NCBI GenBank assembly: GCA_021780545.1
Contig: JAJXYP010000036.1
Coordinates: forward strand, 1-12,421
Direction: 5' to 3'
Source of the DNA: a bacterium
GTDB taxonomy: Bacteria; Patescibacteriota; Minisyncoccia; UBA6257; 2-01-FULL-56-20
Length of the DNA: 12,421 nt
Shown here: in pieces, positions 3,396-10,804 of the stretch
Position numbering within the stretch: the first letter of the stretch is position 1
Layout of the letters: each line of letters begins with the position of its first letter
Program-made: the position numbers and the translations under genes
The notes under the pieces: model-generated
Told to the model about the DNA's origin: nothing
The model's database searches: none
The model's input: the letters and a program-made list of their open reading frames with translations, nothing else

Positions 3396-3680
3396 TCAAC
3401 GGGGGTTCTTTTTAAAGCGCCTACAAGCAGGGCATGAAATCTCGCTTTCATAAAGACGCCCGCAATTCGGACATTCATCTCTCGGTGCGAAATTATATTC
3501 GTGAGCTTGCTCGGTCGGTTTTTCGGATTGTTGCGGCGGCTCTTTGGTTGGTTCCTGAATAGACCCCTCCGCTGATTTTTTGGCGGACTCCTCCGGTGGT
3601 TTCCGTCGGAGTTTTTCAATAGGTTCCTTTTGTGATTCCTCCTGCGGCTCTTCGAAAATAAACGGGAGTTGTTCGGCCAT
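3396..3680 (-). CDS. Small zinc-ribbon protein with acidic/Pro-rich N-terminal tail
   Basis: A 94-residue protein not assigned to a named family. Residues 1-65 are low-complexity and charged (Glu, Lys, Pro, Gln, Ser), probably disordered. The C-terminus holds a four-cysteine zinc ribbon, CPNCGRLYESEISCPACRR, with C70, C73, C83 and C86 as likely metal ligands, then a basic end (FKKNPR). This frame is preferred over overlapping ones because of the intact Cys pairs and the promoter exactly abutting its ATG. It is convergent with mltG (66-nt gap) and divergent from rpoBC. There is no signal peptide, so it is probably cytoplasmic. A nucleic-acid or RNA-polymerase/ribosome-associated role would fit zinc ribbons generally but is not shown. 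Confidence 0.75.
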   Translation of the reverse strand: MAEQLPFIFEEPQEESQKEPIEKLRRKPPEESAKKSAEGSIQEPTKEPPQQSEKPTEQAHEYNFAPRDECPNCGRLYESEISCPACRRFKKNPR

Positions 3681-3785: not shown

Positions 3786-3813
3786 TTGACACGGTTTCAG
3801 GCTTGAATATAAT
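3786..3813 (+). promoter_or_regulatory. Strong sigma-70 type promoter of rpoBC
   Basis: A perfect TTGACA (3786-3791) and a perfect TATAAT (3808-3813) are separated by 16 nt, the best promoter in the window. Predicted transcription start is about 3820, giving a leader of about 196 nt to the ATG at 4016. The 335-base gap between the zinc-ribbon gene and rpoBC (3681-4015) holds the two divergent promoters, the leader hairpin, and a possible short leader frame. I see nothing else firm in 3716-3785. A second isolated TATAAT at 3873-3878 lacks a -35. Confidence 0.85.
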
Positions 3814-3954: not shown

Positions 3955-4015
3955 AATACGGCACTTGCTGCGAAAATTGAATCAAAATAAATTTTATAAA
4001 AAATTAATCAACCGC

Positions 4016-7000
4016 ATGCCAAAATTCTCGTCGGTTAAGGACTTTTCAAAATCAAAACCCCTTATCGCTCCTTTTAATCTGAACGAGGCGCAGCTCAAAT
4101 CGTACCAATGGTTCCTGGATAAGGGTCTGCGCGAGATCTTCGGCGAAATTTCCCCGATCAAAGACCATACCGGCAAGGAATTCGAGTTGCATTTCATCGG
4201 GTATCGCTTCGATGAGCCGAAGCATGATGAGGCGACGGCGCGTTATAAGGAAGCGACGTACGAAGCGCCGTTGCGCTGCACGTTGCGCCTGGTGAACAAG
4301 GTGACGGGCCATGAGCAGGAACAGGAGGTGTACTTCGGCGATTTTCCGATTATGACGAGCCGGGGCACGTTCATCGTGAACGGCGTCGAGCGCGTCGTCG
4401 TTTCGCAGCTGGTTCGTTCGGCGGGCGTTTATTTCACCGCAAACTCCCACCGTGGCCGCCAGCTCTTTGGCGCCAAGATTATTCCAAACCGCGGCGCGTG
4501 GCTTGAGTTCGAAACGGATGCGAACGGAGACATTGGCGTCAAGATTGACCGACGCCGCAAAGTTGCGGTGACCGACATGCTCCGTATTTTTGGACTCGAC
4601 AACGAAAAGATCGCCGAGGCGTTCAAGGACGTCGACAACGGCCCGGTTAGCTACCTCGACGCGACCTTAAAGAAGGACGCCGCCAAGGATGCGGCGGAGT
4701 CGTACATCGAAATCTATCGGCGGCTGCGGCCGGGTGATCCCGCAAGCGCGGAAACCGCCAAGAACCTCATCGACGGCATGTTCCACCGCCCGGACCGTTA
4801 CGATCTTTCGGAGGTCGGCCGGTATAAGATGAACCAGCGCCTCGACCTCGACCGGAAAAAGGATTCGAAATTGCTCGATGCCGAGGATTTGATCGCCATC
4901 GTCCGCCAGGTTATTGTTTTAAACAATGCTTCGGATGCCGAACCCGATGACATCGACCATCTCGGCAATCGGCGCCTGAAGGCAGTCGGCGAACTGCTCC
5001 AGGGGCGGCTGCGGATCGGCCTTGCGCGTCTGCGCCGCATCATCCAGGACAAGATGTCGACCGAGAACAAAGATAGCCTGACGCCCGGCCAGCTCGTGAA
5101 TTTCCGTCCGATCGCCGCGGTTATCAAAGAGTTTTTCGCATCATCGCAGCTTTCGCAGTTTATGGATCAGGTGAATCCGCTGGCGGAGCTCGAGCATAAG
5201 CGCCGCATTTCAGCCCTCGGTCCCGGCGGTCTCACCCGCGAGCGGGCATCGTTCGAGGTGCGCGACGTGCATCGCTCCCACTACGGCCGCATCTGTCCGA
5301 TTCAGACGCCGGAGGGATCGAACATCGGTCTCATCAACTATCTGGCAAGCTATACGCGGGTCAACGATTTCGGATTTCTCGAAGCGCCGTACGTTAAAGT
5401 GAAAGACGGCCGCGTGACGGACGAAGTGGTTTGGCTCGATGCCTCGGAAGAGGAAAAATATAAAATTACGCACGCCGGCAGTCCGCGGGACGCTTCGGGG
5501 CGGTTCCTGGAGCCGGTGCTTGAGGCGCGCATTAAGGGCGAGCCAGGCACGGTAACGCCGGAGGAAGTCGAGCTGATGGATGTCGCTCCGAACGAATTCA
5601 TTTCGGTTGCGACGTCGCTCATCCCGTTCCTCCAGCACGACGATGCGAACCGCGCCCTCATGGGTTCGAACATGCAGCGGCAGGCCGTCGTTTCCGTCAA
5701 TCCGGACGCGCCGTACGTTTCGACCGGACAGGAAGAAAAAGTGGCGCTCGATTCGGGATATGTGATCGCCGCGGAGGATAATGGCGTCGTGCTCGAATCC
5801 GACGGCAGCCACGTCAAGGTGCAGTATCATCAGAAGAGCGGTTCGAACAAGAACGGGATCAAAACCTATCAACTCGAAAAATTCAAGAGGTCCAACCAGT
5901 TCACTTGCATCTCCCAGCGGCCGCTCGTTGTTGCCGGAGAAGCGGTGAAGAAGGGTCAGATTCTGGTCGACGGTCCGTCGATTGAAAACGGCGTCCTGGC
6001 GCTCGGCCAGAATTTGCTGGTTTCATTCGTTTCCTGGGAGGGTGCCAATTTCGAAGATGCCATCATTCTTTCGGAGCGGGTCGTGCAGGAAGATCGGTTT
6101 ACCTCGATCCATATCGAGGAATATCCGATTGATGTCCGCGATACGAAGCTCGGACCTGAAGTTACGACATACGACATCCCAAACGTTTCGGAGGATAAAC
6201 TGAAGAATCTGGACGAAGAGGGTATTATCCGCATCGGCGCCGAAGTCAAAGCCGGCGATATTTTGGTCGGAAAAATTTCCCCCAAAGGCGAATCGGAACT
6301 GACGTCGGAAGAGCGGCTTTTGCGGGCCATATTCGGCGAGAAAGCTCGCGATGTCAAAGACACGTCGCTTACGGTGCCGCACGGCAAAATCGGCCGCGTG
6401 GTGAATGTGAAAGTGTTTGATCGCGAGCGGGGTGACAAGCTGGAGCCGGGCGTCATCCGCCGCATTCAGGTGGAAATTGCGGAGCTTCGCAAAGTGCAGG
6501 CCGGCGACAAATTGGCCGGCCGCCACGGCAACAAGGGCGTCATTTCCCAAGTCCGCGCCGTCGAAGACATGCCGTACCTGCCGGATGGAACGCCGGTGGA
6601 TATCATACTCAATCCGCTCGGTGTCATTTCCCGTATGAACCTCGGGCAAATCCTCGAAACTCATCTTGGCTGGGCGGCTTCGAAACTCGGTTATCGCGCC
6701 ATTACGCCGGGCCTCGATTCCGCTACGGAAGCCGATATCCGCGAAGAACTCAAGAAGGCCGGTTTGCCGGAGGACGGCAAGACGGTGCTCTACGACGGCC
6801 GCAGCGGTCAGGCGTTCGACAACCGCGTGATGGTCGGCCAGATTTACATGCTGAAACTCAACCACCTGGTCGAAGACAAAGCGCACATGCGTTCAATCGG
6901 TCCTTACTCGCTCATTACGCAGCAGCCCTTGGGCGGCAAGGCCCAGTTCGGCGGCCAGCGATTCGGGGAAATGGAGGTGTGGGCTCTCGAAGGATATGGA

Positions 7001-10000
7001 GCGCGGCACACGTTGCAGGAAATGCTCACCATCAAGTCGGACGACGTGATGGGCCGCGCCGCCGCATACGAGTCCATTATCCGCGGCGAACCAATCAAAG
7101 AGCCGAATGTGCCGGCGTCTTTCAACGTGCTGGTGAACGAGCTCAAGTCGCTTGCGTTTAACATCCAGCCGCTCTACGAAACCGACACGGATCGCAAAGA
7201 TAATTTTTCCGCGCTCAAGATCAGTGTCGCGTCGCCGGAGGATATTCTGCGGTGGTCGCATGGCGAGGTGACGAAGCCGGAAACCATTAACTATCGCACC
7301 CAGCGGCCGGAAAAGGACGGTCTCTTTTCCGAGCGTATTTTCGGCCCGACAAAAGATTACGAATGCTACTGCGGCAAATACCGCCGTATCCGGTACAAGG
7401 GTGTCGTCTGCGACAAATGCGGCGTCGAAGTTACCAAGGCGTCGGTTCGCCGCGAGCGGATCGGCCATATAACGCTCGCCGCGCCGGTGTCGCACATCTG
7501 GTTCCTGAAGAGCATTCCGTCGCGGTTGTCGCTCGCGCTCGATGCGCCGACGCAGAAGCTGGAGCGCGTGATTTACTATTCAGCGTACATCATCACCGAC
7601 ATCAAAGAGGAAAACCGTAAGGCGGCGCTCGAGGATCTTGAGCGGGAGCTGCGCGGCAAACTGAAGACCGTCGGCAATAAGGATAAGGCGGTGAAAGGGG
7701 AAATCCTTGAGGCCGCGGATACGACAAAGGAATACCTCGAGGACCTTCGCATAGGCCAGATTTTGAGCGAGAATGAATACTTCGCCCTGTCGCGGAAGTT
7801 CGGCAATATCTTCAAAGCCGGGAGCGGCGCCGAGGCGGTCCACGAGATTCTTTTGAAGATGGATCTTCGCAAGGAGACGCAGAAAGTGGAGGCCGAACTG
7901 CAGGATGCCCGCGATCCGCTGTCTCAGAGCAAACTGTTGCGCCGACTGAAGATGTTTAAGGCCATGGTTCGCAACGGAACGCGGCCCGAATGGATGATTA
8001 TGAATATCTTGCCGGTTTTGCCGCCCGATTTGCGGCCGATGGTCGCGCTTGACGGCGGCCGCTATGCGACATCCGACTTGAACGATCTTTACCGTCGCGT
8101 CATCAACCGGAACAACCGGCTGAAGAAACTTCTCGAGCTCAAGGCGCCGGACGTCATTGTCCGCAACGAGAAGCGCATGCTCCAGGAAGCGGTGGACGCC
8201 CTAATCGACAATTCCGCCCGGTTCGGCACCCAGCAGATGTCCGCTCAGCGTCGCCCGCTCCGTTCGCTCGCCGACATGCTGAAGGGCAAGCAGGGGCGTT
8301 TCCGGCAGAACTTGCTTGGCAAGCGCGTTGATTATTCCGGCCGGTCGGTGATCGTCGTCGGTCCCAAGCTGAAACTCGACGAGTGCGGCATTCCGAAGCG
8401 GATGGCACTCGAACTCTTCCGGCCGTTCGTCATTTCGGAAATCATCCGTCGCGGCCTTTCGCATAATATCCGTTCCGCGGGACGGTTTATGGAAGAGCAC
8501 ACGCCAGAAGTTCTCGCAATACTCGAAGAGGTGATCCAGAACAAGCGGGTGCTCCTGAACCGCGCTCCGACGCTCCACCGGCTTTCGGTGCAGGCCTTCA
8601 AGCCGATACTCATCGAAGGGCTCGCGGTGAAGATCCCGCCGCTCGTCTGTCCGGCTTTTAACGCGGACTTTGACGGCGACCAGATGGCCATCCACCTGCC
8701 GCTTTCCGACTACGCGCAGAAGGAAGCGGCCGAGATCATGGCATCCGGAAAAAATCTCCTGAAGCCGGCGACCGGCGATCTTATCACGGCTCCAATCAAC
8801 GATGTCGTGCTGGGCTGCTATTATCTGACTCGCCAGGACAAACTGCCGGAAGGTGCGGCGGCAAAAGGATTCCCCGGCATGAACGAGGCGCTTTTGGCCT
8901 ACCATTTTGACGGCATCAAGTTGCATACGCCGATCCGGGTCGCGGGTTACGCGGACGGGGCCGAGACGACCGTCGGCCGCCTTATCTTCAACGAAGCGCT
9001 AGACGGAAAAATCGGGTTCGTGAACGATACGATGACGAAAAAGAAGCTGAATAAAATGCTGGGTGTCATGTTCAACGATCACGGCGCCGAGGTTACGCGG
9101 GATGTCATCGACCGGGTCAAGCTGCTCGGCTTCGAGATGGCGACGGTTTCCGGCATCACGTGGGCGATGGCGGATCTCGTGATTCCGTCCGAGAAGCGGG
9201 ACATCATCGCCCGTTCGGAGCGCGAAGTGGAACTCGTCCACGAGCAGTTCGCGGAAGGATTGCTGGCGCAGGCCGAACGCCGCGCCCGGGTCATCTCGAT
9301 CTGGGACAAGACGAAGGCCGATATCGCTAAGGTGGTTTCGGGCATACTGCCGCCGACCAATTCCGTCTACCAGATCGTCGATTCCGGATCCCGCGGTTCG
9401 TGGGCTCAGCCGATCCAGATGATGGGCATGAAGGGACTCGTGCAGAATCCGAAAGGCGAAACGATCGAACTGCCGGTCAAATCATCGCTCAAAGAAGGCC
9501 TGTCCGTCCTCGAATACTTCATTTCGACCCACGGCGCCCGGAAGGGAACGACCGACACGGCGCTCAAGACCGCGCAGGCGGGGTATCTTACCCGCCGGCT
9601 GGTTGACGTCGCCCAGGACATCACGGTTTCCGAGGAGGACTGCCGCTCGAAGGACGGCGTCGATCTCCGCCGCGAAGACGGAAAAGAATTCAATCAGAGT
9701 TTCGCGTCAAAGCTGTTCTCCCGCACGTCGGTCGAGGATATCCGGATCGACCGGAAAATCGTCGTCCACGCGGGCGAGGTGATCGACAAAGTGGTCGCCG
9801 AAGCGATCGAACAGTCGAAGATCGATGTCGTGAAGGTGCGGTCGCCGCTCACGTGCCGGACGCTCTACGGCGTCTGCTCGAAATGCTACGGGTACGATCT
9901 CGGCACCAATCAGCCGGTCCGTCCGGGAACGGCGGTCGGCGTCCTTGCGGCGCAATCGATCGGCGAGCCGGGCACGCAGCTCACGATGCGTACCTTCCAT

Positions 10001-10804
10001 CACGGCGGCGTCGCGCAGGCCGACATCACGCACGGTCTGCCGCGTGTCGAGGAAATTTTCGAAACCCGTTCGCCGAAGGGCCGCGCGATCATCGCGCCAT
10101 TTGAGGGTGTCGTGGAAAAGATAGAAGAGCACGGATCGCAGAAAACAATCCGGCTGGTTCCCGAAAAGAAGACGGTGAAGCCGCAGGAGGTGACCGTATC
10201 GCGTGCGACGATGCTTTTTGTGAAGTCCGGCGATCGCGTCCAGGAAGGAGACCGGCTCTCCGAAGGAAATATCGACATTCACGAACTCTATGAACATAAG
10301 GGGTCCGTGGAAGTCGCGCGGTACATCGTGAACGAAGTGCAGAAGATTTACATGTCGGAAGGCGCATCGATCAACAACAAACATATCGAAATGATTGTCC
10401 GGCAGATGTTCTCGCGCGTGAAGATCACGGAAGGCGGCGACGCGCCGGATTTCGTGATGGGCGAGGTGGTGGAAAAAGCGCGGTTCCTCGAGATAAACAA
10501 GCAGATTAAAAAGGATGGCGGGACGCTGGCGAAGGCGGAGGAGATTCTTCTCGGCATTACCCGCATCGCGCTTTCAGCGGAGTCATTCCTTTCAGCGGCT
10601 TCCTTCCAGGATACATCCCGCGTGCTCGTGAAGGCGGCCATCGAAGCTAAAGTCGACAAACTGCGCGGCCTCAAGGAAAATGTTATCATCGGCCGCCTTA
10701 TCCCGGCGGGCGACCGGCGGGTTGCGGCGGAAGAGATGCTCGACGAATCGGAGGAGGAAGCCGCGGAAGCAGTTTCTGCGCCGGCGGCGGCTGCGGGAGA
10801 ATAA
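4016..10804 (+). CDS. rpoBC: DNA-directed RNA polymerase, fused beta-beta' subunit (RpoBC)
   Basis: One uninterrupted frame of 2262 residues carries complete RpoB followed by complete RpoC, the two catalytic subunits of RNA polymerase. Beta: [10 protein letters not shown]...[12 protein letters not shown] (rifampicin pocket, from Q378), CPIQTPEG (427-434), and [13 protein letters not shown] with K832 and K840 at the conserved active-site Lys positions. Beta homology ends near residue 1054, and beta' starts near 1064 ([12 protein letters not shown]), leaving about 9 linker residues (nt 7178-7204) and no stop or start. Beta': zinc site 1 C1117, C1119, C1132, C1135; catalytic NADFDGDQM with D1551, D1553, D1555; zinc site 2 C1876, C1947, C1954, C1957; bridge helix/trigger loop from about 1975. 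It lacks the large E. coli lineage inserts. The acidic Ala/Glu tail (last ~25 residues) is extra. ATG 4016 is preferred over TTG 3965, which would add 17 non-conserved residues. Confidence 0.97.

Follow-up and report, generated by a model that had tools for sequence, protein, structure and literature searches.

A fused rpoBC gene joining the beta and beta' subunits of RNA polymerase in one family of Patescibacteria

The window, i.e., the whole stretch of 12,421 nucleotides analysed here, contains a single gene for both large subunits of RNA polymerase (fused rpoBC, 4016..10804, +; 2262 aa, 252 kDa), recognised by NCBIfam and Pfam models and by motif reading. The reading frame (3965..10804, +) is open throughout; translation from the ATG at 4016 to the TAA stop at 10802–10804 gives the 2262 residues. 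The RpoB (beta) half (4034..7168, +; residues 7–1051) matches NCBIfam model NF001616 with 1535 bits (cut-off 896), and the curated cut-off of the ordinary RpoB model TIGR02013 is passed as well (1523 bits versus 801). The RpoC (beta') half (7214..10711, +; residues 1067–2232) matches NCBIfam model TIGR02386 (1530 bits versus 963.5). Pfam places the Rpb2 domains and then the Rpb1 domains in the fused frame, all in the expected order. The two NCBIfam equivalogs for fused beta/beta', NF007172 (PRK09603) and NF011417 (PRK14844), which we take to be the Helicobacter-type and Wolbachia-type models, remain below their cut-offs (2202 bits versus 5372 and 2119 bits versus 4632, respectively).

Motif reading finds the N-terminal zinc-binding cysteines of beta' at 7361..7423 (+; a 21-residue motif), the catalytic NADFDGD motif of beta' at 8660..8680 (+) and the second zinc site of beta' at 9851..9892 (+; a 14-residue motif, with the first cysteine in EEDCRS at 9632–9649). 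These and the other hallmark motifs are intact in the fused protein (the catalytic, zinc and hallmark assignments are presumed). As read from the gene itself, the frame is uninterrupted and both halves are complete by the NCBIfam and Pfam models, with the catalytic and zinc motifs in place. The initial annotation, which described rpoB and rpoC as joined in one frame and not decayed, was right on both counts, and the fusion is genuine. The genome of the window, a MAG of 675 kb (83% complete, 92 contigs), has one rpoBC place, and no separate rpoB or rpoC copy was found in this 83% complete assembly. A single rpoBC copy unaccompanied by separate copies was found in six of six genomes checked (that of the window and five others).

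The beginning of the window is occupied by the 3' end of a 23S rRNA gene (1–315), in which two stretches of about 42 and 82 nt are inserted compared with the consensus of the bacterial model; it is followed by a 5S rRNA gene (494–608). An ORF of 94 residues on the reverse strand (3396–3680) has a zinc-ribbon-like end (CPNCG...CPAC) and no Pfam match. Upstream of rpoBC lies a promoter-like site of the sigma-70 type, TTGACA-16-TATAAT (3786..3813, +), with 12 of 12 consensus matches. It is a consensus match only, as four promoter-like sites were found in the region versus 3.8 in shuffles, i.e., no excess. The same region scan found no promoter-like site on the forward strand near the junction.

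The junction consists of 16 residues (7172..7219, +), flanked by NIQP, the last conserved strand of RpoB, and by ISVASP, the first strand of RpoC. Because FSALK resembles the RpoC start of split relatives, the free part of the linker is about nine residues, ETDTDRKDN (7178–7204), in line with the earlier estimate of roughly nine. The fused frame has no ATG, GTG or TTG between 7136 and 7267, and the linker of the window contains no Shine-Dalgarno-like motif, the nearest one being located downstream, inside RpoC; the junction was thus correctly described as having neither stop, start nor ribosome site. The junction was modelled twice with AlphaFold2, in pieces of 500 and 210 residues (pTM 0.41 and 0.45), and both models give strand-loop-strand, with a mean pLDDT of about 73–81 around the linker. 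The models are too weak to be read beyond this arrangement, and the PDB structure search covered almost solely the RpoB part. As weak evidence, strand-loop-strand would fit a kept contact between the end of beta and the start of beta'.

The family to which the window belongs (f1) was represented by 38 genomes, 35 of which gave a match. The junction is crossed without a stop in 33 of these 35, which answers the suggestion that rpoBC length and junction be checked in related genomes. One fused genome of the family (G023) is a single 841-kb contig; in one of the two genomes outside the 33 (G004) the frame runs open through the junction until the contig ends. Three genomes gave no match in the first search; pieces away from the junction were later found in two of them (G002 and G037) and none in the third (G015). 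The other (G007), assigned to the family but with split genes, was set aside: the contig is only 57–58% identical and groups with a class outgroup, and is probably misbinned.

The linker is conserved in length and partly in composition. All of the nearest 120 protein clusters run across the junction; these are the nearest ones, not a random draw, from at least 8000 scored protein candidates in several databases, and their source names include Candidatus Liptonbacteria, Ryanbacteria and Paceibacterota. The linker has 16 residues in 115 clusters, 17 in four and 15 in one. In the 115 clusters with 16 residues, Y2 (107), R8 (109), D/E10 (115) and F12 (115) are almost invariant. Direct reading of 33 family loci gave a linker of 16 residues in 26 and of 17–27 in seven, measured between match ends, which vary by up to 2 residues. 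A codon-position test was performed on 26 gap-free loci (25 of the family and one f1-like locus, L154, discussed below). In 21 nearest-neighbour pairs the differences at codon positions 1/2/3 were 55/46/137 in the linker and 206/75/991 and 249/109/1038 in the flanks. Since linker differences fall mostly at third positions, as in the flanks, the linker is translated in the fused frame; by these counts it is under looser constraint than the flanks. An in-frame ATG, GTG or TTG occurs within the 16 residues in seven of the 26 loci. A Shine-Dalgarno-like motif is present near such a codon in three loci, but not at the usual spacing upstream of one, and no well-placed motif precedes the in-frame start codons of the seven.

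The closest relatives with separate genes belong to families f14 and f10. They have the same domains, and over the compared parts their identity to the window is 74–77% for RpoB and 68–71% for RpoC. They differ in having separate frames: in three of four loci an ATG follows the rpoB stop by 2–25 nt, and in the fourth (L132) no ATG was found in the rpoC frame. Trees were built from 1576 RpoB+RpoC columns with 95, 72 and 43 rows. In the 43-row tree the fused f1 rows form one clade (100/100), sister to split f14 (97/94); the 95- and 72-row trees resolve the branching among f1, f14 and f10 weakly. The phylogenetic placement proposed earlier for the beta and beta' sequences therefore puts f1 among split relatives, beside f14. 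This nesting among split Patescibacteria agrees with the CPR lineage and the independent fusion suspected in the initial annotation, as does identity (68–78% to nearby split families versus 45–50% to three fused Helicobacter loci).

Split pairs of the order are tightly packed. They were studied in 63 hand-picked loci, those in the same frame being chosen partly because an earlier search had shown them. In the 62 with an ATG, the median distance from the rpoB stop to the nearest rpoC ATG is 14 nt; the spacer is 20 nt or less in 40 of 62 and the genes overlap in six of 62. Both genes lie in the same frame in 14 of the 63. The gap from anchor to anchor is 48 nt in the window versus 86–139 nt in the four f10/f14 loci. 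The shorter gap of the window would fit a deletion in which the end of RpoB was lost together with its stop, the spacer and the start of RpoC.

The omega subunit is described in passages of PMC9973325 as critical for beta' folding and core assembly. The Pfam omega model matched in none of 101 relatives and none of 141 phylum genomes, with positive controls in 14 of 14. With the NCBIfam omega model nothing exceeded the cut-off in 61 relatives (five sub-threshold matches); this model brought only seven of 14 controls over the cut-off. Models of this kind can miss a divergent omega, as PMC9973325 reports for Chlamydia, and one in Patescibacteria may be missed too. Split relatives also lack a detected omega, so its loss alone does not predict fusion.

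Taken as a whole, the locus is very probably explained by a vertically inherited rpoB–rpoC fusion of one family of Patescibacteria (Parcubacteria group), the product being made as one chain. The direct observations behind this explanation are the open frame and its conservation, coding selection that acts in frame through the linker, the position of the family within split relatives, the absence of second copies in the genomes checked and the absence of an omega match. In the ancestor of f1 a tightly spaced rpoB/rpoC pair would have been joined in frame, most simply by a deletion running from the variable end of RpoB through the stop and the short spacer up to and including the start of RpoC. 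The fused gene would be transcribed from one promoter region, presumably that upstream of it, and translated into one chain of about 252 kDa, with no proteolytic cutting expected. Since the beta C-terminus should adjoin the beta' N-terminus, this chain could fold as a normal core enzyme, the linker forming a loop that joins two strands. The tether would fix a 1:1 stoichiometry and could spare one assembly step in an enzyme with no detectable omega. The fused product is most likely a normal core enzyme with tethered beta and beta', judging from the sequence.

As for the benefit of the tether, two close genes could by chance have been fused, and the tether tolerated and then kept by drift, with no gain in assembly or stoichiometry. 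This neutral course, to which we give slightly less than an even chance, bears on the benefit alone and leaves the remainder of the explanation intact. The very short spacers of the hand-picked split relatives (at most 20 nt in 40 of 62, overlap in six of 62, a shared frame in 14 of 63) speak for it, as does the small number of fused lineages although omega was found in none. Because the split relatives show no omega either, a tightly packed pair is almost as likely to have fused neutrally as with a benefit. However, the f1 linker hardly varies in length and is almost invariant at several positions, so that the joined form is under constraint today; this reflects constraint after fusion, not an advantage of fusing.

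The tether could replace part of the job of omega. In a wider and rather doubtful version of this idea, the beta–beta' tether of an omega-less phylum would have arisen at least twice (in f1 and f25) to stand in for omega in assembly and would have become fixed together with a conserved linker element of its own; genome G073, considered below, may be a third and recent step.

Cleavage of the product was also considered, i.e., a polyprotein cut in the linker into normal beta and beta'. All sequence evidence is compatible with it, but a passage of PMC9696931 describes the fused Helicobacter pylori protein as a single polypeptide. The linker, moreover, is short and modelled as a loop between two strands. 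Such processing is accordingly regarded as improbable, and a single uncut chain is preferred.

Among known fusions, those of Helicobacter and Wolinella are reportedly the subject of Zakharova et al. 1998 and 1999, and the title of the 1999 work is said to name both fused and overlapping genes; this contrast parallels that between f1 and some split relatives here. Three Helicobacter loci (L094, L103 and L108) were fused by the same reading and, like the window, have one open frame in the order RpoB–linker–RpoC. They differ in the linker, which has 31–33 residues between match ends (these vary by up to 2 residues) versus 16 in the window, and come from another phylum, with 45–50% identity to the halves of the window. 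The linker of the window is indeed tighter than in these three loci, as the initial annotation had thought possible, although 12 residues are found in an unrelated MAG (L109). Helicobacter RNA polymerases have omega. A shared fused ancestor with Helicobacter is not supported; this statement rests on trees built without Helicobacter and on identity for the three loci.

Wolbachia is an alphaproteobacterial lineage. For both Helicobacteraceae and Wolbachia the rpoBC fusion is treated as established in passages of PMC7483510 and PMC9696931, which cite Zakharova (1998, 1999) together with a sequence analysis of multi-subunit RNA polymerases from 2010. Wolbachia resembles f1 in that the same two genes, rpoB and rpoC, are fused (stated in PMC7483510), but it has an omega subunit according to a passage of PMC9973325, in contrast to the Patescibacteria sampled, which gave no omega match. 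The nesting of f1 among split Patescibacteria would argue against a shared fused ancestor with Wolbachia. Two further loci have an open frame through the junction, each in a single MAG: Bryobacterales RHO3_bin_37 (L106), with 62 residues between match ends, and the unplaced bacterium CSMAG_1505 (L109), with 12 residues and its 5' end cut. The scan of named genomes covered, among the matches listed, mainly distant phyla and favoured same-frame pairs, so the frame was not used as a statistic. A collection of phage sequences also gave 39 unannotated records with rpoBC-like matches; the five looked at (H1–H5, from Staphylococcus, Listeria, Enterococcus and a faecal sample) are possibly mislabelled bacterial contigs. 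In the open-access literature no earlier report of an rpoBC fusion in Patescibacteria, Parcubacteria or the Candidate Phyla Radiation was found; one may exist elsewhere.

Beyond f1, the order was surveyed with an RpoC-only probe, which matched in 136 of 146 genomes; genomes that gave no usable match (e.g., G092, G104, G128, G141 and G164) were left unscored, and frames ending at contig ends were left unjudged in the order, class and phylum tables. A frame too long for RpoC alone was found in 15 genomes: 11 of f1, G139 (family f21), G061 and G080 (f25) and G073 (f15). No further fusion was found in the class sample (130 of 137 matched) or in the phylum sample (136 of 141 matched), the sole fused frame in each being that of the window's own genome. 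Apparent extra fusions, e.g., in f3, f5, f12 and f13, were two matches joined across a stop; the RpoC-only search and reading of the loci assigned them to split pairs. In four genomes of family f26 in the same order (G062, G081, G097 and G111; L167), in-frame TGA codons occur within rpoC in all four, and this suggests that TGA may be reassigned in the family.

Two of the 15 cases require caution. In addition to its own split pair, G139 carries on contig C3 an f1-like fused rpoBC (L154; 88% identity over the RpoC probe), which is probably a binning contaminant in an f21 genome. L154 is part of the 95-row tree, of the count of 15 fused genomes and of the set of 26 loci in the codon test, and was left out of the 72- and 43-row trees. 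The fusion of G073 (L134) is doubtful because its linker keeps an out-of-frame ATG preceded by AGGAGG; it may represent a very recent fusion or a base-call error. No such trace is present in the linkers of the window, G023 and the two f25 loci.

Fused f25 groups as the sister of f15 (100/99); within f15, G073 is the earliest branch, and the other seven members included have split genes. Uniting all fused rows in one clade was rejected (AU test, p 4.85e-06), as was a fused clade of f25 and G073 (p 0.001); both topology tests were done under LG+G4, with no mixture model, when the first trees were already known. Rejection of a common fused clade implies a minimum of two origins, one in f1 and one or more in the region of f25 and f15. 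Should the fusion of G073 be real, the latter region could be accounted for just as well by two fusions as by one fusion with one fission. An ancient fusion in the order with many later losses would agree with the confinement of fused lineages to one order within the phylum samples. It would, however, require many separate fissions against a rejected single clade and a 43-row tree that forces three changes of state, and the linkers of f1, f25 and G073 show no mutual resemblance by eye; we consider it very improbable and retain separate origins. A sequencing or assembly artefact at the junction, conceivable for one contig of a 92-contig MAG, has a negligible probability and is practically refuted for f1 by the number of independent genomes, because the open junction recurs in 33 of 35 family genomes, one of them a single contig, and in all 120 nearest listed protein clusters.

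Named records among these 120 clusters include proteins of about 2250 residues labelled "subunit beta", "subunit beta'" or "hypothetical protein". Misleading labels of this kind can distort gene counts and marker-gene pipelines.

The f1 fusion belongs to the kind already described in Helicobacter/Wolinella and Wolbachia; it is an independent case that extends through its clade and has a linker both short and conserved. Since split, overlapping, possibly just-fused and long-fused forms coexist in one order with no detected omega, the question of whether a tether can stand in for omega becomes testable there. Nearly all bacteria keep rpoB and rpoC apart; in Patescibacteria this split has been closed on more than one occasion, and in one family the closed form has been retained.
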